A DNA stretch of 64,000 nt from Bradyrhizobium sp. CB2312. GTDB lineage: Bacteria; Pseudomonadota; Alphaproteobacteria; Rhizobiales; Xanthobacteraceae. Under the pieces are notes generated by a model, which was given only the letters and a program-made list of their open reading frames with translations, did no database searches and was not told the DNA's origin. Made by a program: the position numbers and the translations under genes. Of this stretch, positions 34,077 to 61,493 are shown one piece after another. Numbering within the stretch: the stretch's first letter is position 1; the number at the start of each line of letters is the position of its first letter. The stretch spans positions 1,757,501-1,821,500 of the forward strand of contig NZ_CP121668.1 in assembly GCF_029714425.1 (NCBI RefSeq), read 5' to 3'.

Positions 34077-34120
34077 GGCAATAACGATCTTCTATCAACT
34101 CTACGGCGAGAGGTGATTCC
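34077..34120 (+). promoter_or_regulatory. Shared 45-bp regulatory box, copy 1 (cupin)
   Basis: Begins GGCAATAACGATCTTCTATC and ends GGCGAGAGGTGATTCC. The core ATAA-N7-CTAT resembles an OxyR half-site. Copies at 47508, 53628 and 58775 share order and spacing. It ends 57 bases before the cupin start. Confidence 0.65.
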
Positions 34121-34692
34121 ACTCGTCGGCGTTGCGATGTCACTCTCGTCATGTTCAACATGACCAGGAGCTACAAATGTCAGCCCAGCAGCCGGTTCTC
34201 AGGCCGCCCCGCGCCGGCGAGACGGTGACCTCGAGCGGCGGCTCGAGCATCGAGATGAAAGTGGATAGCCGCCAGTCCGGAGGTGACTATGGCGCTGTCC
34301 TGTGGACGGTACGGGCGGGGAGGAGCCGCCGCTGCACACCCACTCGCGCGAGGACGAACTGGTCTACGTGGTGCAGGGGCAGCTAATCGCGCGGGTCGGC
34401 GATGCCCGCGTCGAGGTGGGACCGGGCGCCTACGCGGCTCTTCCCCGCGGTGTGCCGCATACGATCAAGGTGGTCGGCGACCAGGCACCCTGCTGGTCAG
34501 CTTGTGCCGGGTGCGGATTCCGCTCGATGTCGCCCACCATTCCGAGATGATCTCGCCCACCATTCCGATTTGAAGTCGCCCGCCCGTTCCGAGATGATGT
34601 CGCCCACCATTCCGGGATGATGTCGCCCGGGTGACGAGACCTCTTCTGGCTCCCATAGGGTCAACCCTTTCGGCTTTGCGAAGGGGACCTGG

Positions 34693-36246
34693 ATGCCGAC
34701 GGAGAGGCTTGCGATGCGCCGTGTGCGCGATGTGATCAGAATGAAGGCGGCCGGGCTGCCGAGCCGCGAGATTGCGCGACGGGTGGGCGCGGCACCCTCG
34801 ACGGTGCGGCTGGCGCTCCGGCGGTTCGAGGCCGCGGGCTTGAGCTGGCCGTTGCCAGACGACGTCACCGACACGGTTCTGGAACTTCGCCTGTTCGCTA
34901 AGACCGGCAATGGCAACCGTCAGGGTCACCGCCGCATCGCCGAGCCCGACTGGGCGACCGTGCACCGCGAGCTCAAACGCAAGCACGTGACGCTGTCGAT
35001 CCTGTGGGAGGAATATATCGCCACCGAGCCCGGCGGATACCGGTACTCGCGCTTCTGTGAGCTCTACCGCGCCTGGGAGGGCCGTCTGTCGGTGACGATG
35101 CGCCAGGCCCATGTGGCTGGCGACAAGCTGTTCGTCGACTACGCCGGCGATGGCGTGCCGGTGGTGGTCGACCGCCTGACCGGTGAGCGCAGAACGGCGC
35201 AGATCTTCGTCGCCGTGCTCGGCGCATCGAGCTTCACCTACGCGCAGGCGACGTGGACGCAGGGGCTCGCCGACTGGATCAGCGCCCATGTTGGCGCCTT
35301 CGCGGCGATCGGCGGCATACCGGCGCTGCTGGTGCCCGACAACACCAAGGTCGCGGTCATCAAGGCGAGCCTGTACGACCCGCAGATCAATCGTACCTAT
35401 GCGGAGATGGCGGCGCATTACGGCACCGCCATCTTGCCGGCGCGGCCGCGCAAGCCGCGCGACAAGGCCAAGGTCGAGCAGGCCGTCCTCATCGTCGAGC
35501 GCTGGCTGCTCGGTCGCCTGCGTCATCGCACCTTCTACAGCCTGGCCGAGGTCAATGCGGCGATCGGCGAACTGCTCACGAGGCTGAACGAGGAACGGCC
35601 GATCCGACGGCTCGGCGTGACACGCCGCCGGTTGCTCGAGGAGGTCGACCGGCCGGCGCTCAAGCCATTGCCGGTGTCCCCCTACGTCCTCGCCGAGTGG
35701 CGGATCCGCCGCGTCAGTCTCGATTACCACGTCGAGGTGGAGAAGCATTACTACAGCGTTCCGCATCGCTTCGCCCGCGCCGAGGTCGAGGTGCGGTTCA
35801 CGGCCCGCACCGTCGAGATCTTCCACAAGGGCGAGCGGATCGCCGCGCATCAGCGCATGAGCGGCAATCACAAACACACCACCGTGCCGGAGCACATGGC
35901 CTCCAGCCATCGGCGCTACGCCGGCTGGACCATCGCGCGTATCCGCCAGGACGCCGCCGCGATCGGGCCGGCGACCAGCGCGTTGTGCGACCTCATTCTC
36001 GACGAGCGCTCGCACCCCGAGCAAGGCTTCCGCGCCTGCCTCGGCATCCTCAGGCTCGCCGCCTCCTATGGGCGCGAACGGCTGGACGCCGCGGCTGCGC
36101 GGGCGATCGACATCGGCGCGCGCACCTATGGCTCGGTCAAGTCGATCCTCGCCAATAATCTCGATCGGCGTCCTGCTCACCAGCGCTCCGCGGACGATGC
36201 GCCGATCCTGCATGCCAACATCCGCGGACCGCGCTACTACAATTAG
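34693..36246 (+). CDS. istA: IS21-family transposase IstA
   Basis: 517 residues, usual for IstA. The N-terminal helix-turn-helix is MKAAGLPSREIARRVGAAPS. The rve/DDE integrase core has catalytic acids in KLFVDYAGD, ALLVPDNTK and KAKVEQAVLIVERW. The C-terminal Mu-like domain has YHVEVEKHYYSVPHRF, typical of the family. It cuts and joins the element ends together with the IstB ATPase. A possible start at 34693 lies past the terminal repeats. The stop is 11 bases before istB. Confidence 0.95.
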   Translation: MPTERLAMRRVRDVIRMKAAGLPSREIARRVGAAPSTVRLALRRFEAAGLSWPLPDDVTDTVLELRLFAKTGNGNRQGHRRIAEPDWATVHRELKRKHVTLSILWEEYIATEPGGYRYSRFCELYRAWEGRLSVTMRQAHVAGDKLFVDYAGDGVPVVVDRLTGERRTAQIFVAVLGASSFTYAQATWTQGLADWISAHVGAFAAIGGIPALLVPDNTKVAVIKASLYDPQINRTYAEMAAHYGTAILPARPRKPRDKAKVEQAVLIVERWLLGRLRHRTFYSLAEVNAAIGELLTRLNEERPIRRLGVTRRRLLEEVDRPALKPLPVSPYVLAEWRIRRVSLDYHVEVEKHYYSVPHRFARAEVEVRFTARTVEIFHKGERIAAHQRMSGNHKHTTVPEHMASSHRRYAGWTIARIRQDAAAIGPATSALCDLILDERSHPEQGFRACLGILRLAASYGRERLDAAAARAIDIGARTYGSVKSILANNLDRRPAHQRSADDAPILHANIRGPRYYN

Positions 36247-36257
36247 GAGATCATCCC

Positions 36258-37001
36258 TTGCTCACCCATCCGACCCTCGACCGCCTCAACGCCCTCGGCC
36301 TCCACGGCATGGCCAAGGCCTTCGCCGACATCGAAGCCACCGGTGAGGCCGCAAGCCTCGGTCACGCCGAATGGCTTGCTCTGCTGCTCGAACGTGAAGC
36401 CTCGCTGCGGCACGACAAACGGCTCGCCACCCGCCTGCGCTACGCCAAGCTGCGCCAGCAGGCGTGCGTCGAGGACATCGACTACCGCACCCCGCGCGGT
36501 CTCGACCGTCCGCTGTTCGCCAAGCTTGTCGAGGGCCGCTGGATCGACGACCACGTCAATCTCCTGATCTGCGGCCCGGCCGGCGTCGGCAAGAGTTGGC
36601 TCGCCTCGGCGCTCGGCCACAAGGCCTGTCGCGACAATCGCTCCGTGCTCTATCAGCGCGTCCCGCGCCTGTTCGACGATCTGGCGCTCGCCCGCGGCGA
36701 CGGTCGCCATCCACGCCTGTTGCGCGGCCTTGGCCGTGTCGATCTGCTGATCCTCGATGATTGGGGGCTCGAGCCGCTCGATGCCGGCGCCCGTCACGAC
36801 CTCCTGGAAATCCTCGAAGATCGCTACGGTCATCGCTCCACCATCGTCACCAGCCAGCTCCCCGTGGACCAGTGGCATCTGCTCATTGGAGATCCCACCT
36901 ATGCCGACGCCGTGCTCGATCGCCTCGTCCACAATGCCCATCGGCTCGACCTCACCGGTGAGAGCCTGCGCCGAAGCCGGCAACCCGCCCGAAAGACCTG
37001 A
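36258..37001 (+). CDS. istB: IS21-family helper ATPase IstB
   Basis: 247 residues. AAA+ ATPase related to DnaC: Walker A CGPAGVGKSWLASALG, Walker B LLILDDWG, and sensor STIVTSQLPVDQWH. The N-terminal helical domain (HPTLDRLNALGLHGMAKAF) recruits the transposase. It assembles on target DNA and activates IstA. The start follows AGGAG (AATTAGGAGATC). Operon with istA. Confidence 0.95.
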   Translation: MLTHPTLDRLNALGLHGMAKAFADIEATGEAASLGHAEWLALLLEREASLRHDKRLATRLRYAKLRQQACVEDIDYRTPRGLDRPLFAKLVEGRWIDDHVNLLICGPAGVGKSWLASALGHKACRDNRSVLYQRVPRLFDDLALARGDGRHPRLLRGLGRVDLLILDDWGLEPLDAGARHDLLEILEDRYGHRSTIVTSQLPVDQWHLLIGDPTYADAVLDRLVHNAHRLDLTGESLRRSRQPARKT

Positions 37002-37342
37002 GCCCGTCGCCCTGTGGACATGCCGCTGCGCTTGGACAACGCCAAGGCGTTGCCCACATGCCCACAGCAACCGCAACAGAAACAGAAGAGTTCAAGCCGC
37101 GATTCCGGGTTGACCGCCCGGGTCGCCCAATGCCAGAAAATCTATCGGCCAGAATGCCTCGCTCCCGGGCGAGATCAAATCGGAAAGGTGGGCGACATCG
37201 TCTCGGAATCCCCGGGCGACTTCATATCGGTACACCCGGGCGACTTCGTCGGAATCCGCAGCCGGGTGGGCTGGAGCGCTTCTTGGTCCTCCGGGACGGC
37301 GAGAAGCCCGATCCGGCTCCTTTCGGCCTGGCGTTCCCCTAG

Positions 37343-41337: not shown

Positions 41338-41659
41338 GGCTGCTCCTGTGATAGCGGAAAAATTCTGTGTTTCCCACGGATGCAGCCTATGACAATCGCG
41401 ATCAGCGGTTCAATTGAACGTAGGTAATCGTACGGCATCCAAAGTGGTCATGGAACGATGCGAAGGTCTCGCCCTTAAAGGCGAACTCGTCACGCCACAG
41501 CCAAATTCGTAATGACGCTGTAGATGCTCGACGTAATGCGCTGGCAGTGACGGCGGCTGCCCTAGTGCGGAAGTGGCCGGCCATAGACCTTTGTGTCGGT
41601 CCCATGATCCCTTGTGATGCCCGACGTCTACCGACGTACAATTGAGCCGGTGATCGCGA
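41338..41659. repeat. Region flanked by inverted 25-30 base repeats
   Basis: 41400-41422 (GATCAGCGGTTCAATTGAAC start) and 41632-41663 are inverted copies. Related single copies lie at 33448 and 45049. The interval could be a small non-autonomous element of about 265 bp. No gene was seen inside, though a minus frame ending TYVQLNR is protein-like. Confidence 0.4.
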
Positions 41660-41779
41660 TCATCTTAGATACCGTATGCGGTAGCGAGAGACCTCCCCCC
41701 AGCCCACCTCGCTATCGCTGCCCGCCTTGGACGTTCCTCCTGAGGCGTGGGCCGCCTGCGGTAACGCAGGCGGCCTTTT
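41660..41779 (+). ncRNA. Candidate trans-acting small RNA with anti-Shine-Dalgarno loops
   Basis: The sequence folds into a hairpin (GGTAGCGAG with CTCGCTATC) whose loop holds ACCTCCCCCC. A single-stranded CCTCCT follows near 41735, then a strong terminator (41750-41779). Loops complementary to ribosome sites mark a known class of alphaproteobacterial small RNAs. No coding frame uses the terminator on this strand. The 5' end is a guess; no promoter was confirmed. Confidence 0.5.
41750..41779 (+). terminator. Strong Rho-independent terminator
   Basis: Perfect 11-base stem (GGCCGCCTGCG with CGCAGGCGGCC), loop GTAA, then TTTT on the plus strand. No plus-strand gene ends just before it, which is the reason for the small RNA proposal. 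Confidence 0.85.
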
Positions 41780-44706: not shown

Positions 44707-45048
44707 CAATGCAAAGGACTTCAGCAACTTTTGAAACCTTCTCCACTGCCTTGTCGGCCTCGTTGTCCCCTGATCGATCTCGGCGTCGCTGCCCTGTTCG
44801 TTCGTGTTCGTCGGCTTGCCGATGCCCCTTGCCAGCTTCGCCTGTCGGCAGGTCCACGTTGTGCGCCAGTGCCATCGTGCTGCGGCAGAGGTGGGCGATC
44901 TTGGTCCCTAAGGGGAGTTGTCGGGCAGTCTCTTTTGCCGAGAGCGACGCTCTTGACTCGTTGCGCAGGTGGTCGGCGTTAGAGTCCGAGCGCCATAAAA
45001 CCTTCGCATCGTATCAGTGACCCTTTAGAGCCCAACGGTTACTGATCG

Positions 45049-45075
45049 TTCAATTGAGCCGCTGATGGCGATCAG
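45049..45075. repeat. Dispersed repeat copy (core CAATTGAGCC)
   Basis: Same 25-base family as 33448-33468 (CAATTGAACG core), 41400-41422 and 41632-41663. It lies 58 bases upstream of the small gene at 45133. Confidence 0.4.
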
Positions 45076-45132
45076 CTTAGGCCGGATGCGCTGGAAAGTG
45101 CATAGGCTCTTGGATGCGACAGTGAAAATGGG

Positions 45133-47278: not shown

Positions 47279-47500
47279 TTATCCATACGGCGGACACGTC
47301 GGCGTATCGGTCCAGGTCGCCGTCGCAAAAGCGCCGAGGTTGATAACCTCAGTACTAACCATCGGATGACCCCGCTGCGCCCAATAGCGCACGTCCGTTG
47401 TCACGGAAGGTATCGCTACCTTGATCGATCTGGCATTGAGCAGTGCAGAAGACGATTTAGCGGAGGCGGTCCACCACTCACGATAATTACCTTCGAGTGC
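47279..47500 (-). pseudogene. Remnant paralogue of the small exported protein at 58347
   Basis: Minus-strand reading SIKVAIPSVTTDVRYWAQRG, then INLGAFATATWTDTPTCPPY before a stop at 47279. This aligns with SIKAAVPTGTTDVRY and VGAFATAPWTDTPTCPPY of the copy at 58 kb. The signal peptide and start are lost, and the Tyr/Gly-rich middle is shortened. It still has Trp (TGG) where the other copy has TGA. The shared 45-bp box lies just upstream. Confidence 0.65.
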
Positions 47501-47507
47501 TGCGGAG

Positions 47508-47552
47508 GGAAATCACGTCCCGCCATAGAATCGATAAACGATCGTTATTGCC
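47508..47552 (-). promoter_or_regulatory. Shared 45-bp regulatory box, copy 2
   Basis: Minus strand GGCAATAACGATCGTTTATC at the start and ACGTGATTTCC at the end. Same order and spacing as copies at 34077, 53628 and 58775. It precedes the remnant gene at 47279. Confidence 0.65.
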
Positions 47553-50198: not shown

Positions 50199-50489
50199 CG
50201 GTGACTCCTATGTGCTTGGTTTCTCGAGCGGGTTCTTGCGACGCAGCGAGTGCAGCCACCTAAGATGACGATCACGCCGTCCTATGCTGGCAAGTACTCC
50301 GCACGACCGTCGCGCCCGGTTAGACGCGCAGAAAGGCTATGCCGATACGCCAACCATTAGAAATGCCCGGTCGTTATTGTTTCCATTCCACTCGCTCGGC
50401 GCCACGCAAGGGCAGCACGCGCCGGGTCGACGAGCGGCTGGTCCAGGCGGCCGGCGCAACGCTGCCAGCGCTCTCGCTGCTGCGGAAGT
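50199..50489. other. Upstream region of the SPW gene
   Basis: It shares blocks with the region upstream of the second SPW gene (near 56460-56660), for example CATTTCTAATGG-type sequence near 50360 on the minus strand. No gene. Confidence 0.45.
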
Positions 50490-51582: not shown

Positions 51583-53503
51583 TCAGAACAGCTTGCGTTC
51601 CAATGCCCGAGCTGAACGATAAGAGCTCCTCCCGGTGGCGGTCTTTGGCAACTTTGATCTATTCAGCCCGTCATGAGCCAATCGCAGATTACCCAGGCCA
51701 GCCGACGAGACGTTGAGTCCCCGCGCAATGAACCACCCTTCATTCCCATCCAACGCGCGATGGCCACCCGGATGATAGTTCGACCTTTGGAGACCGCCAG
51801 AAGCCGCCGCAAGGATGAAGCATATCGAGGACAATGATGCCGGCCCTTTGACGTTGACGCGGCATGGTCGGTTTGGCCTTCGATCGTCAGGCCACGCAGG
51901 CTTGCACCAGAGCTCCTCGGTCTGCTTATCCTCGACCAGCATCGCCTTGGCGTGGCGCGCCAGCGCTTGGGTCGGGGCGTTGGTATTACCGCTGCTGATG
52001 TTCGGCATGATTGAGGCGTCGATCACCCGGAGGCCGTCGACCCCGCGGACCCTGAGCCTCGCGTCAACCACCGCTCGCGCATCTTGGCCCATCCTGCACG
52101 TGCCGACCGGGTGCCACATCGTCGTCACAGCGCGCTTCGCCCATTCGCCGATCTCGGCATCCGACCGGATGCGCGGCCCCGGCTCCATCTCTTCCTCGAT
52201 AACCGGCGCCAACGACTCCTGCGCCATAACCCTGCGGATCGCGTGCACCGATTCCACCACGGCTCTCAAGTCTTCCTCCTCGCCGATGAAGTTCGGATTG
52301 ATCAGGGGCATCGACGTCGGGTCGCTGTCGGCCAACCGCACCCAGCCACGGCTCTTGGGCTGAAGCACTACGAGTTCGAAGGTGATGACGGAGCGGTCGC
52401 CCGTCGGGCTGAGTTCCTGGTTCGCGATGATAGGAGCGTGATAGCATTGGATCGTGGGTTCGGCGGTGAAGTCGGACGGATTCCAGTGGGAAACCGTCTC
52501 GATGCCATTGCCCGCTGCGGGGGCCATCCTTGGTGACGAGATAGCGAAGGCCCGCCTTCACGGTGCCGAGGCCTTGCGCGACGGCCTGATAGCCGAGATC
52601 GCCCTTCACATAGGCACGCACCGGTACCATCGGATGGTCTTGCAGATTTTCGCCGACCTCTGGAGAATCGACGATTACGGCGATACCGTGCTGGCGAAGC
52701 TGCTCGGCTGGACCGATGCCCGAGTGCATGAGGATCTTCGGGCTATGGACGCTGCCGGCCGACAGCACGACCTTTCCGGCTGTGATCCTGGCGCCCTCCA
52801 TGAGCTCGACGCCAACAGCCTGCTTGTTTTCGATGAGGATGCGGACGACCGTCTTGCCGGTGACAAGAGTCACGCGGCCCGACGTCAGGTGTGGACGCAG
52901 ATAAGCGTCGACCGCGCTGCAGCGCTGCTGGTTTCCGACCGTGGACTGCACGGGTGAGACGCCGATCTGGCTCTTGCCGTTATAGTCCGGATTGAAGGGT
53001 AGCCCATATTCCTGGAAGGCCTTTAGGCAGTATTGGTTCAGTTCATTGATGCCTTTGGGCTGCTGGACAGCTAGGCCGCCATCGATGCCGTGAAATTGGT
53101 CGTGAAAGGTGTCATTGTTCTCCTGCGCGATAAAGACGGGGAGCAAATCGTTATACGACCAGTAGCCAGTCTCGCCGACCGCGTCCTGCCACGCTGTGTA
53201 GTCGCGTATCTGACCGCGAACGTAGGCCATAGCGTTGATCGAGGAGCCGCCGCCAAGCACCTTTCCTGAGCGATAGGCTCGCTTGGTGCCGTGCTGGGGA
53301 ACAGTCTCATATTTCCAGACATGCCGATCGTGTGCCAATATCTTGGCGAAGCCGGCAGGAATGTGGATGAACGGATCGCGATCTGTGTCGCCTGCTTCGA
53401 TCAGCGCGATCGAAGCATCGGTGTGTTCGGCAAGATAACTCGCGACCACACATCCCGCTGCCCCCGCACCGACAACGACAATATCGTAGGCTTGTTGAGA
53501 CAT
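51583..53503 (-). pseudogene. GMC-family oxidoreductase (choline dehydrogenase-like), frameshifted
   Basis: The start SQQAYDIVVVGAGAAGCVVA gives the FAD-binding motif. GKVLGGGSSINAMAYVRG is GMC signature 1 and LSAGSVHSPKILMHSGIG is signature 2. After VTKDGP near 52519 the frame shifts because of one extra C in a C-run. The C-terminal domain continues as AAGNGIETVSHWNPSDFT, with the catalytic region TTMWHPVGTCRMG and SSGNTNAPTQALA. Family members oxidise alcohols. After about 51935 the frame runs on for some 115 codons with no homology. The shared 45-bp box lies upstream. Confidence 0.85.
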
Positions 53504-53627
53504 CAGCGGCTTTTCTCTCTTGCGCCAATCTGCATCGTCCGACGCCGTCTACCGCGGAGCGCCATCGAATGATCCTGAGAGTGATCGCACCATACGGGTC
53601 AAACAGTGACTTCGCGTCGCGAGCGAG

Positions 53628-53672
53628 GGAAATGAACTCTCGACATGAAATCGATAGACGATCGTTGTTGCC
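53628..53672 (-). promoter_or_regulatory. Shared 45-bp regulatory box, copy 3 (GMC oxidoreductase)
   Basis: Minus strand GGCAACAACGATCGTCTATC at the start, GAGTTCATTTCC at the end. It lies 125 bases upstream of the oxidoreductase start and inside the broken end of the monooxygenase remnant. Confidence 0.65.
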
Positions 53673-56456: not shown

Positions 56457-57374
56457 AGCGCAACTCCTGCATGCTGGGCTGCTCATTTGAGTTCTTGTGA
56501 CATCGAGAGTAGGAGCGGCGAACGAGATCAACCGCGTTGATGGGCGGCGCGGCTTGCCACCGAGTATCGATGAGGTGTACGGGGAAAGTATTCTTGTCTG
56601 TCCGCCGTTAGAAATGCAGGATCGTTATCGTTTTCATTCTCCGGAGCGGCCGCGTCTAAGGCGCTTAATTCAAGCGGGCCGGTACGAGAGTTTAGAAAAT
56701 TGGTTTGCGCAGAAATCTCTTCCATTGAATGCTCCCGATTTGTACCTCAGGATCGGTGCCAGCCGCGCACGGGCGGCAGCGAGTCCCCACCCGATCGAGT
56801 CTGAGCAAATCGTGTTCTTATCTCGCATTCACAGCGCCAAAGTAGTGTGAATGCGCTATCGTTCTGTTCGTGGCCAATCACTTGGAGGCGTGCTCTCGAT
56901 CTAGATGTGCGTCGAGAGGAAGATGCCAACGAGCAGCACAAAAATCGTGCCCCACTACAGTGGCGAACGATCGCTCAACGCGATCGATGGCACGCAACTC
57001 CTGCCTGAAACACGTGCGTTCCGTGTCGCGTATCCCCGGTCGCACGGTCTGATCGCAATCCTGATCGATGTTGGACGCTCATGGATGAGTCCGCGTAGCT
57101 AAAGATGCTTGGCGACTCGACGATTTGATCGACTAATGATCGATGTATTCGATGCACTGGCTGCGGCCGCCAGCCGGACATCTCGTTAGCGGTCCCAATG
57201 CGGCTCCGTAGGCGCCGTTACGACTGCGGAGGAGCCGGCGTGAGAGTATCCGTCCGGTGAAGCTTTCAATTACCCACATTTAGCCCGGAGGGCTGAGGAA
57301 GCGCACCAACCTATTGCATCGCAGGAATCGACCGTGATTCCTTGACTGGCACCGATTCGCAGGGAGCGGTGCCA
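56457..57374. other. Intergenic region
   Basis: The first 200 bases resemble the upstream region of SPW copy 1. No supported gene in the rest. Confidence 0.4.
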
Positions 57375-58346: not shown

Positions 58347-58718
58347 TCAATACGGCGGACACGTCGGTGTGTCAGTCCAGGGTGCGGTTGCAAATGCGCC
58401 GACACGCGGTCCGGGCAAGCAACCTGACCTGTAATATCCGTAACCGTAGGCCGCATCGTATGACTCATCGGTCGGGTAGCCCCAATACGAACTATCGGCG
58501 GGATAGCCCCAGCTCGAATAATAGGCGGGGTAGCCCCAGTGCTGATGGTAGGGAGGGCTCCGCCGTACTCAATAGCGCACGTCCGTCGTTCCGGTAGGTA
58601 CCGCCGCTTTGATCGACGTGCCATTGATCGGCGCGGCCGACGATTCAGCCGTGGAGACGACGGCGATAGGAACAGCAATTGCGAGCGCAGCCGCGAGGCC
58701 GCGGACTTGAGTCTTCAT
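58347..58718 (-). pseudogene. Small exported Tyr/Gly-rich protein interrupted by TGA
   Basis: From the ATG at 58718 (AGGAG upstream): signal peptide KTQVRGLAAALAIAVPIAVV (cut near SSAAP), then GTSIKAAVPTGTTDVRY and TGA at 58571-58569. The same frame goes on: HQHWGYPAYYSSWGYPADSS, a WGYP repeat, then VGAFATAPWTDTPTCPPY and stop at 58347 (124 codons in all). The remnant paralogue at 47279 has Trp at the TGA position, so this is a Trp-to-stop change or a read-through codon. The shared box lies 57 bases upstream. Confidence 0.7.
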
Positions 58719-58774
58719 GGTAGCTCCTTTTCGTTCTGGACTGCTAACGAGAATAGCTCTGCAACGTCGGCGAT

Positions 58775-58819
58775 GGAAATCACCTCTCGCCATCGAGTCG
58801 ATAGACAATCATTATTGCC
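58775..58819 (-). promoter_or_regulatory. Shared 45-bp regulatory box, copy 4 (small exported protein)
   Basis: Minus strand GGCAATAATGATTGTCTATC at the start, GCGAGAGGTGATTTCC at the end. It holds ATAA-N7-CTAT as in copies at 34077, 47508 and 53628. Confidence 0.65.
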
Positions 58820-59571: not shown

Positions 59572-60645
59572 TCACCGCCGCTCTATTGAGTGCGGTTGCC
59601 GGGATAGCCGCGCTTCCAGATCTTCGCCAGCTGTCTGAGAATCGCTCGGGCGAGCGACCCGGATTCGTGGCTCAAATAAGGAGCCTCCACGTTGTACGCC
59701 AGCGTTGTGAATGTTACCATTGTTTGAGGCAGGGATAGATGCGTTGCGGAGATTTTCCAGTGTACTCTGCCAGTCCCGAGCGCGGACAGTCTTTATAAAC
59801 GCGTCAAGAGCCGGCGAGTATTGCCTCCCCGCCACGGCCATGAGCTGCACCTCACGCCCAATTGGGTCGCCCTCAATCGGTATAGCAGCGAGCGACGGCA
59901 GCCTTGGAGCGTGCTCTGGGGCCAAAATGGCTCCAAAACCGGCGGATGCCATTTGCTGAAGATGCCTTTCCTGATCACTGGTGTGTACTACCTTAGGGCC
60001 AGGATGGTCGCCAAAACACTCTCGCATGAATCTGCCCACGACGTCACATCCGAGCCGTTCGAGAAATACCACCTCGCGCAAGTCTTGGATGGGGATCGCG
60101 GCTTGCCTCGCTATCGCATGTTCTCGAGATAGGACAAGAACGTACCGCTCTTGGAAGAGCGGCCAATGGTCGATCCTCTCAGGTAGCTCCACGGTATCGC
60201 CGACAAGGGCCGCATTAATTTCGCCATCCAAAAGCAACGCAACGAGCTCGTCGGCATCGGCTTCGCGTAAATCGAATCGAAGTTCAGGGATGGTCCTGGC
60301 GAGTTCCGCGAGCAATTCCGTAATCAGTGCGGCGGAAATTGACGGCGCCAAGCCGATCTTGAGGCGGGCGATTGCCTTCTTTTGATAGCTTCGCGCCTGA
60401 CGCCTTACCGCCTCCGCAGCGAGAAATACCTCCTCCAGCTTGGGCAGAATTATTTTGCCAAGCTCGGTGAGCTGGGTGAAACGACGTTCACGGTGAATCA
60501 ACGCACCGCCGAGCTCCTCCTCCAGCTTGTGGACCGCCTTTGTCAGTGCCGGCTGGGTTACGTTGCATTGCTTAGCAGCCTGCGTAAAATTGAGCGTCCT
60601 TGCGAGGGCCAAGAAGTATCGCACCTGATGGAACTGCAGATGCAT
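59572..60645 (-). CDS. LysR-family transcriptional regulator, OxyR-like DNA-binding domain
   Basis: 357 residues from MHLQFHQVRYFLALARTLNF at 60645; the longer start at 60681 is less likely. Winged helix: NFTQAAKQCNVTQPALTKAV, KLEEELGGALIHRERR. Effector domain: RLKIGLAPSISAALITELLA, LLDGEINAALVGD, RYVLVLSREHAIA, VFLERLGCDVVGRFMREC. There are two Cys in the effector domain (GCDVV and REC), but spacing differs from OxyR. Its C-terminal 50 residues are poorly conserved. It is a candidate regulator for the shared ATAA-N7-CTAT boxes; that link is inferred. Confidence 0.88.
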   Translation of the reverse strand: MHLQFHQVRYFLALARTLNFTQAAKQCNVTQPALTKAVHKLEEELGGALIHRERRFTQLTELGKIILPKLEEVFLAAEAVRRQARSYQKKAIARLKIGLAPSISAALITELLAELARTIPELRFDLREADADELVALLLDGEINAALVGDTVELPERIDHWPLFQERYVLVLSREHAIARQAAIPIQDLREVVFLERLGCDVVGRFMRECFGDHPGPKVVHTSDQERHLQQMASAGFGAILAPEHAPRLPSLAAIPIEGDPIGREVQLMAVAGRQYSPALDAFIKTVRARDWQSTLENLRNASIPASNNGNIHNAGVQRGGSLFEPRIRVARPSDSQTAGEDLEARLSRQPHSIERR

Positions 60646-61493
60646 GCTCACACTCGAGAGATTTGCCATGGTCCGGACCATTTCAGGTCGTCGCCATGGG
60701 AAGCAGGGGCGATGGCAAAAGGATTGGTCGTGGAGTTTCCGACGAAATGGGAGCTGTGCATCGGCCCGGAGCTCTCGATATCCCTGGTGCGAAAAGTTCT
60801 CTTACCGACGCTCTTTCCTGCTAACGCCGCGGAGGATGATATCAGCTCAACTCGAGGGTCCGGAAAACACCCCGGATCATGAAGCTTGCATTGCGTCGAT
60901 CCGATCTCGATATGCCGATAGCGACCTTGGATGTCGACGTTATGGGCGCAGCGTTTAGTATCCCTCACGGTCACTTCGACACCGGTGGGCAATACAGTTG
61001 ACGCTGGGAATATGGTTCGCATCCTGGTTATCCGTGACGCTGCAGTCCTGATGTCTCGCGAGAGATAGAGCAGATTGCGCGTGACGGTAAGCTCGGTTCT
61101 TGTTGCGGCGTTCTCATTCTTGCGGATTTATCGAGTGAGTAGTTCCGCTTCGTCTCTGGCCTGCTCGGCAGCTCCGTGGTCTCGATCACCTATCAATCTA
61201 AGTTGGCTTAAAAGTGAGCCGCGGCCTACAAGCGAGAATAAATTGCACAGGTCGCCCTTGGTTAGTTGATTGGTAGCTGCCCTTTTTGAATTAGCAACTA
61301 AAGCGCGCTTGCCACCCCGGGGTCGCCATCTGTCATTGCATCAAGGCGACTCAACGGGCCAACTCAATAACTGGTGCAGCTCTGTCACGTGAGCGACGGG
61401 CACGTGCTTGAAATCGCAAAAGCCCAAAGACACCAAGATTCGCACCGTCGATAGATATTCGCTCCGCTGTTGGTTCGCTGCAGGATATCCGAT
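60646..61493. other. Intergenic region
   Basis: A minus frame at 60648-61022 starts MRTIFPASTVLPTGVEVTVR and is protein-like for about 60 codons; no family was recognised. Nothing else seen between the LysR gene and the kinase stop. Confidence 0.3.

Follow-up and report, generated by a model that had tools for sequence, protein, structure and literature searches.

A 71-bp box occurs in ten strong copies on a chromosomal island of Bradyrhizobium sp. CB2312, a bacterium of soil and root nodules, and it is, with good confidence, predicted to be the operator and core promoter of an island-confined regulon controlled by a subfamily of LysR-type regulators (LTTRs). LTTR1, the proposed activator, is encoded in the window, that is, the whole 64-kb stretch of DNA that was analysed. 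Judged from sequence, an LTTR bound to the box would activate transcription from a -10-like CATTCT motif, 18 bp past the TTTCCC of the box. The genes regulated in this way would form a defence set of enzymes (peroxiredoxin, GMC oxidoreductase, molybdopterin oxidoreductase and a cbb3-like oxidase), cytochrome b561, efflux systems of the RND and MFS types, a cupin, a histidine-kinase-type protein and exported proteins of small size. This set is probably induced by an oxidant or a reactive electrophile, sensed via a conserved cysteine (Cys198), and it would move among rhizobia on islands and plasmids together with its own regulator. For an oxidant as the signal, the prospects may be put at about even. 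The first-pass annotation had suggested a local regulon from four boxes, and this suggestion is supported by the ten boxes in 75.4 kb, by the lack of strong boxes elsewhere in the genome and by orthologous genes behind boxes in other species.

Copies, limits and layout of the box

The copies were collected by a profile built on eight of them, which returned ten when run across 224 kb around the window; a sequence model made from these ten and searched against the entire 9.78-Mb genome recovered the same ten (60.7-73.7 bits, E 8.6e-16 to 7.6e-20). No eleventh strong box exists in the genome, the next best match reaching 14.2 bits (E 0.27), and the reversed box pattern, used as a control, has no match. 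All ten lie between genome positions 1,791,577 and 1,866,942, four of them in the window (Table 1), and the chance of so short a span is about 1e-18 if ten sites are placed at random on the circle. Such a full-genome scan had been proposed as a check by the first-pass annotation; it places every strong copy on the island, and the downstream genes were compiled. A 12.3-bit match in the core genome, lying some 100 bp before a further LTTR gene (genome 5699157), was treated as chance, because the adjoining LTTR is only 26-28% identical and the first half-site is absent there.

Table 1. Box copies, genes behind them and regulator genes in Bradyrhizobium sp. CB2312 (window positions unless marked as genome positions)
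Feature	Position	Strand	Remarks
Box copy 1 (71 bp)	34077..34147	+	71.9 bits; upstream of broken cupin gene
Box copy 2	47482..47552	- (start 47552)	65.5 bits; upstream of degenerate exported-protein remnant
Box copy 3	53602..53672	- (start 53672)	63 bits; upstream of GMC oxidoreductase gene
Box copy 4	58749..58819	- (start 58819)	72.2 bits; upstream of exported-protein gene with in-frame stop
Six box copies outside the window	genome starts 1847900 (-), 1848295 (+), 1860553 (-), 1860752 (+), 1862797 (+), 1866869 (+)		
Cupin gene remnant (target 1)	34177..34513, end approximate	+	frame disturbed, then IS21-type element; boxed orthologue elsewhere with Pfam Cupin_2
GMC oxidoreductase (target 3), two overlapping frames	51583..53503	-	N-part 52064-53503, C-part 51583-52527
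Exported protein (target 4), first 49 codons to in-frame stop	58569..58718	-	orthologue cluster of 11 other boxes
LTTR1, LysR-type regulator, proposed activator	59572..60681	-	HTH_1 and LysR_substrate
LTTR2, paralogue of LTTR1, 59% identical	genome 1876007-1876939 (outside the window)		9 kb past last box

The four copies first reported at 34077 (+), 47508 (-), 53628 (-) and 58775 (-) are all present at these places. They had been described as a 45-bp unit with a common order and spacing of GGCAAYAAYGAT, CTATCRA and GCGAGAGGTGATTTCC, and this description holds in part. The spacing is kept throughout positions 1-45 and GGCAAYAAYGAT is exact in all four copies, but CTATCRA is exact in three (the 47.5 kb copy reads TTATCGA) and GCGAGAGGTGATTTCC only in the 58.8 kb copy, the copies at 34.1, 47.5 and 53.6 kb having 2, 2 and 3 changes; moreover, the conserved unit is longer, at 71 bp. 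Mean pairwise identity among the ten own copies is 0.73-0.78 at positions 1-45, 0.48-0.57 at positions 46-71 and 0.22-0.28 outside. Because identity falls to background on either side of positions 1-71, the box is a 71-bp unit and not part of a larger repeat. This bears directly on the idea of a dispersed island repeat, MITE-like or a recombination site, that lies upstream of genes by accident. Further dispersed repeats and an IS element do occur in the region, but there is no homology between the ten copies past the motif, and boxes are oriented toward orthologous ORF starts in many genomes, which leaves this explanation with very little credit. Neither a box lying mostly inside genes nor one forming part of a transposable repeat, the two outcomes named beforehand as contrary to the regulon, was found, and the flanks are at background identity.

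The ten-copy consensus is GGCAATAACGATCGTCTATCGACTCTATGGCGAGAGGTGATTTCCCTCGCCGGCGTTGCAAGGTCATTCTC. It includes ATAA-N7-CTAT-N7-ATGG-N7-TGAT, four 4-bp elements over 37 bp, and the N7 spacing is kept in 10/10 own copies, none of which has an insertion or deletion at positions 1-45. The OxyR site consensus given in PMC5720770, ATAG-N7-CTAT-N7-ATAG-N7-CTAT, also has four elements with N7, so the spacing of the box is identical to that of OxyR sites. Relative to this consensus, CTAT is identical, ATAA and ATGG are one base off and TGAT is two bases off. It had been noticed in the first-pass annotation that ATAA-N7-CTAT stands one base from the OxyR half-site ATAG-N7-CTAT; this is correct, and a second half-site is also present at the correct spacing. 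An assignment of the elements as OxyR ATAG/CTAT sequences was rejected, the consensus being ATAA, CTAT, ATGG and TGAT. LTTR sites are described as carrying a T-N11-A dyad (PMC5002191), which is found as T6-N11-A18 in the first half of the box in nine of the ten own copies, the 53.6 kb copy having C at position 6.

Conservation was profiled on 33 copies, left after dereplication of the best 119 of 137 aligned rows (those of about 30 bits or higher). The 16 positions of the elements average 1.69 bits, against 1.29 bits for the remaining 29 of positions 1-45; since a one-base slide of the element mask gives 1.686 bits against 1.693 in phase, the profile is no sharp test of the four-element phase. 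Further along the box, TTTCCC (positions 41-46) and CATTCT (positions 65-70) lie 18 bp apart, and they may represent the weak -35 and the -10 of a predicted promoter. LTTR recognition sites are usually located near -65. A transcription start about 7 bp past CATTCT would put the centre of the distal half-site near -65.

The region around the boxes has several features of its own. Behind the start of the cupin gene lies an IS21-type element (window 34514-37230) with IstA-like (34693-36246) and IstB (36258-37001) genes and repeated ends. A shorter second repeat, GAATGGAAACAATAACGACCGGGCATTTCTAATG, which has CAATAACGA in common with the box, is present at window 50355-50388 (-) and 56606-56639 (-), with 0 copies expected by chance, and it is possibly another operator family. 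Another repeat of 50-70 bp around CAATTGA is found at window 33418, 41370, 41599-41668 and 45041-45097, and the segment 41370-41668 resembles a small element with inverted ends of about 70 bp. GC content in 8-kb bins is 0.57-0.60 over genome 1,785,501-1,897,500, that is, from window 28 kb onward, as against 0.64-0.66 left of the window; within the window it is 0.59 at 12-20 kb and 0.63 at 20-28 kb. The low GC from 28 kb onward is consistent with an acquired island. A nif-linked location was considered and dismissed, as the only nifH above cut-off lies at 8.71 Mb and the boxes at 1.79-1.87 Mb.

Genes behind the boxes

Each of the four boxes in the window had been said to point toward a gene (cupin, exported protein remnant, GMC oxidoreductase and exported protein). 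The orientation stands, and two of the four genes are remnants. Taken in genome order, the first four of the ten targets are the cupin remnant, the exported-protein remnant, the two-frame GMC oxidoreductase and the exported protein interrupted by an in-frame stop. The fifth box precedes an exported protein that is intact, the sixth a histidine-kinase-type gene and the seventh a small ORF with a cbb3-like oxidase operon after it. The last three targets are cytochrome b561 (so named after its orthologue), a peroxiredoxin and a pair of RND efflux genes. The boxed histidine-kinase-type gene is followed by a fusion of an NhaA-type antiporter with a DsbA-like thioredoxin domain (L013 8007-9872). The two GMC oxidoreductase frames match GMC_oxred_N and GMC_oxred_C and have orthologues behind 12 other boxes; the start codon of the gene lies 93 bp past the model match of box copy 3. 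As several targets in the window are decayed, part of the circuit may be dead in CB2312.

Across CB2312 and other genomes, 137 box matches at E 0.05 were obtained in 66 stretches. The first downstream ORF clusters with an ORF behind another box in 121 of these matches and stands alone in 16. These ORFs were picked simply by length, the longest being taken, and no gene caller was used; at least 9 of the 121 clustered ones look like wrong frames, one cluster of two represents two boxes before the same ORF, and two boxes have no ORF. The larger clusters are the RND adaptor and kinase-type genes (16 each), GMC oxidoreductase and cupin (13 each) and the exported protein (11), followed by peroxiredoxin (7) and COX1-like, MFS and molybdopterin oxidoreductase genes (6 each). 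Small clusters comprise cytochrome P460 (5), cytochrome b561 (4), the Rid family (3) and still smaller ones. The boxes of molybdopterin oxidoreductase reach only 25-34 bits and those of cytochrome P460 14-17 bits, and these two targets are weaker claims on account of the low scores.

Start codons mostly follow the box by about 25-330 bp. With a position just upstream of start codons and a single orientation, the box might act at the RNA level, as a riboswitch or other structured leader, and not as a DNA operator. This seems most improbable given that the 64-kb window has no Rfam match at gathering score, that the ten-copy consensus fold is weak (-3.74 kcal/mol, with an unfavourable covariation term of +0.58) and that a two-sided change is seen in one of 12 pairs.

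The proposed regulator and its co-occurrence with the box

The LysR-type gene that had been reported at 59572 is confirmed, with HTH_1 (69.2 bits, cut-off 26.6) and LysR_substrate (112.1 bits, cut-off 28) both above cut-off. In the CB2312 genome, neither LTTR1 nor its paralogue LTTR2 has a strong box upstream of its gene. Co-occurrence was counted in 146 Bradyrhizobium genomes, with LTTR (subfamily cut-off E 1e-60), box and GMC counts taken as one set on the grounds that genome number and labels agree. The LTTR is present in 22 and the box in 23; 21 genomes have both, two the box only, one the LTTR only and 122 neither (Fisher p 4.5e-22). The two box-only genomes (G174 and G185) have one copy each and no LTTR at the cut-off, and the LTTR-only genome (G032) has a distant LTTR at 42% identity. 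As a yardstick, the GMC target is found in 16 of the 21 genomes with box and LTTR and in one box-free genome, where the gene is cut by a contig end; it tracks the box less closely than the LTTR does. Putative control of the boxes by the LTTR1 subfamily is thus supported by co-occurrence, although this could also reflect hitch-hiking, since box and LTTR share one island.

The box and the LTTR also occur together outside Bradyrhizobium. Three of 249 genomes of the order have the box, and one of these, G199, belongs to another family and carries an LTTR2 relative at 84% identity with three boxes within 5 kb. Many named Bradyrhizobium genomes carry the LTTR and so do, among others, those of Mesorhizobium hawassense (86%), Rhizobium calliandrae (82%, the translated stretch containing a stop) and Devosia nitrariae (72%). 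The model search finds 6, 6 and 4 boxes in the latter three, respectively, and no box in a Caulobacterales genome whose LTTR is at 52%. Among 30 plasmid records with an LTTR relative, the closest LTTRs are those of Rhizobium jaguaris (85%), Mesorhizobium sp. B2-1-1 (84%) and Sinorhizobium mexicanum (74%). Five of the 30 records were searched for boxes: these three plasmids have 8, 1 and 6, and the other two, whose LTTRs are at 53% and 40%, have none. The eight boxes of R. jaguaris lie 46-119 kb from the matched LTTR gene, with none inside 20 kb.

The independently annotated S. mexicanum plasmid pEmeITTGR7a likewise has boxes before orthologous genes. Of its six boxes, three are followed after 73-80 bp by the start of a gene, for a GMC oxidoreductase, an ATP-binding protein and a hypothetical protein; the other three stand 187-668 bp before the genes of an RND adaptor, a DUF3788 protein and a second hypothetical protein. 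Five boxes are intergenic, and the RND adaptor box overlaps a short CDS annotated on the opposite strand. The single box of Mesorhizobium sp. B2-1-1 begins in the final 4 bp of a gene, 100 bp before a sulfite-oxidase-like gene, and its cluster contains OsmC, two peroxiredoxins, MsrA, MsrB and Dps. Annotated neighbours on the box plasmids include MsrA, MsrB, peroxiredoxins, OsmC, Dps and WrbA. The S. mexicanum plasmid (L202, L206) also encodes hemA, hemC, hemE, hemF, hemJ, cytochrome c maturation and cytochrome P460 alongside the regulon, and URO-D, PBG deaminase and P460 genes are also found on the Bradyrhizobium island (L013).

More divergent regulators were followed with the core pattern TATCRANTNNATGNCN8ATTTC, written after the Mesorhizobium sites had been seen and searched in eight genomes. 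M. hawassense has eight matches and R. calliandrae four. Each of four genomes reached via Mesorhizobium loci (LTTRs at 36-37%) has exactly two matches and none for the reversed pattern, and G392 and G393 have no match. The sites are 1.3-3.7 kb from the LTTR in three of the two-match genomes and 5.7 kb (nearer site) in G391. In one locus examined, they precede other genes, namely an MbnB-like gene as well as SDR and patatin genes. The box thus goes with the regulator family and not with a single set of genes, and the Mesorhizobium sites before other genes weaken the hitch-hiking objection.

The box could also be bound by another regulator, be it a core-genome LTTR or the canonical OxyR of the host, with the island LTTRs as mere co-travellers. 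At genome 63274-64131 the host encodes an OxyR-type candidate, which at 250.5 bits likewise stays below the OxyR cut-off, and the box shows OxyR spacing. However, the box is absent from 123 of the 146 same-genus genomes and from CB2312 outside the island, it tracks the island LTTR across genera, and three of its four elements (ATAA, ATGG and TGAT) depart from ATAG/CTAT, which makes binding by another regulator improbable. Control by the LTTR1 subfamily is preferred. The box is essentially tied to LTTR-bearing genomes, and the same target types (RND efflux, GMC oxidoreductase, cupin, peroxiredoxin, oxidase/cytochrome and exported proteins) recur. Because the box occurs almost only where this LTTR type does, the whole looks like a transferable gene set with its own control circuit.

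Probable signal of the proposed regulon and comparison with known systems

Both by sequence and by fold (predicted model of mean pLDDT 87.8), the solved structure nearest to LTTR1 is that of Pseudomonas aeruginosa OxyR; those of CcmR, CbnR and BenM come not much further away. Classification of LTTR1 and LTTR2 as OxyR was rejected, their scores being 95.7 and 88.3 bits against the NF008361 cut-off of 329; the NCBIfam models GltC (131 and 125 bits), CynR, HcaR and others outscore the OxyR model, all under their cut-offs. The system may work like an OxyR-type LTTR, although it is not classed as OxyR. OxyR senses through a redox cysteine pair, C199 and C208. One cysteine, Cys198, is kept in 13/13 close and 31/35 wider members of the LTTR family, and in a profile alignment with 4x6g, a C199D protein, it falls one residue off position 199, the peroxidatic position of OxyR. 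A second cysteine lies 10 residues further in LTTR1, and LTTR2 has none there.

These features matter for the putative signal. The regulon may instead answer a non-oxidant ligand, such as a plant aromatic or quinone or an efflux substrate, with the redox genes serving its metabolism. RND and MFS pumps, GMC oxidoreductase and cupin among the targets would suit such a ligand, as would the matches of the LTTR to BenM, CatM and CbnR structures and to GltC, CynR and HcaR models. The peroxiredoxin and molybdopterin oxidoreductase targets, the Msr, OsmC and Dps neighbours and the conserved Cys198 close to the OxyR redox position speak against it, and a non-oxidant ligand is considered rather unlikely, if still worth weighing. 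It would keep the same operator and regulator and is compatible with control of the boxes by the LTTR1 subfamily. If the signal is an oxidant, the system could be a self-contained mobile redox regulon, with one to three OxyR-like LTTRs and up to thirteen operators, insulated from the host OxyR; this is advanced tentatively, at slightly less than even. Recipients among Bradyrhizobium, Mesorhizobium, Rhizobium, Sinorhizobium and Devosia would then gain a ready-wired oxidant response by transfer.

No description of this box was found in the titles and abstract openings among the literature matches listed, which is not proof of absence. For an accessory rhizobial regulon, the analysis provides a precise predicted operator along with two candidate regulators and a set of orthologous promoters. 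It illustrates how a response of several operons may pass to a new host together with its wiring, and the question of which stress the regulon serves becomes directly testable.

The predicted system resembles that of OxyR in its LysR-type regulator, in the four 4-bp elements with N7 spacers over 37 bp, in a peroxiredoxin target and in the nearest structure. It differs in the elements themselves (ATAA, CTAT, ATGG and TGAT), in a single family cysteine instead of a conserved pair and in the confinement of strong sites to the island; in addition, the annotated target clusters showed neither katG nor a canonical oxyR. NodD and its nod boxes offer another parallel, with several LTTR boxes confined to a symbiotic plasmid or island that also encodes NodD copies. 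The box described here likewise has several copies on a transferable replicon that also encodes LTTR copies, but the box and the gene set are different. For Deinococcus radiodurans, PMC2225504 reports a peroxide-sensing OxyR with one cysteine; a single conserved cysteine is the point of resemblance; the lineage is another one and redox sensing by the box-linked LTTR is putative. Finally, LsrB of Rhizobiales is described in PMC11975290 as consistently in an operon with trxB and as having four sensor-domain cysteines in Agrobacterium. The box-linked LTTR would be comparable to LsrB as a second redox-type LTTR beside OxyR in rhizobia (PMC11975290), but it differs as an accessory island gene, present in 21 box-bearing genomes of 146.
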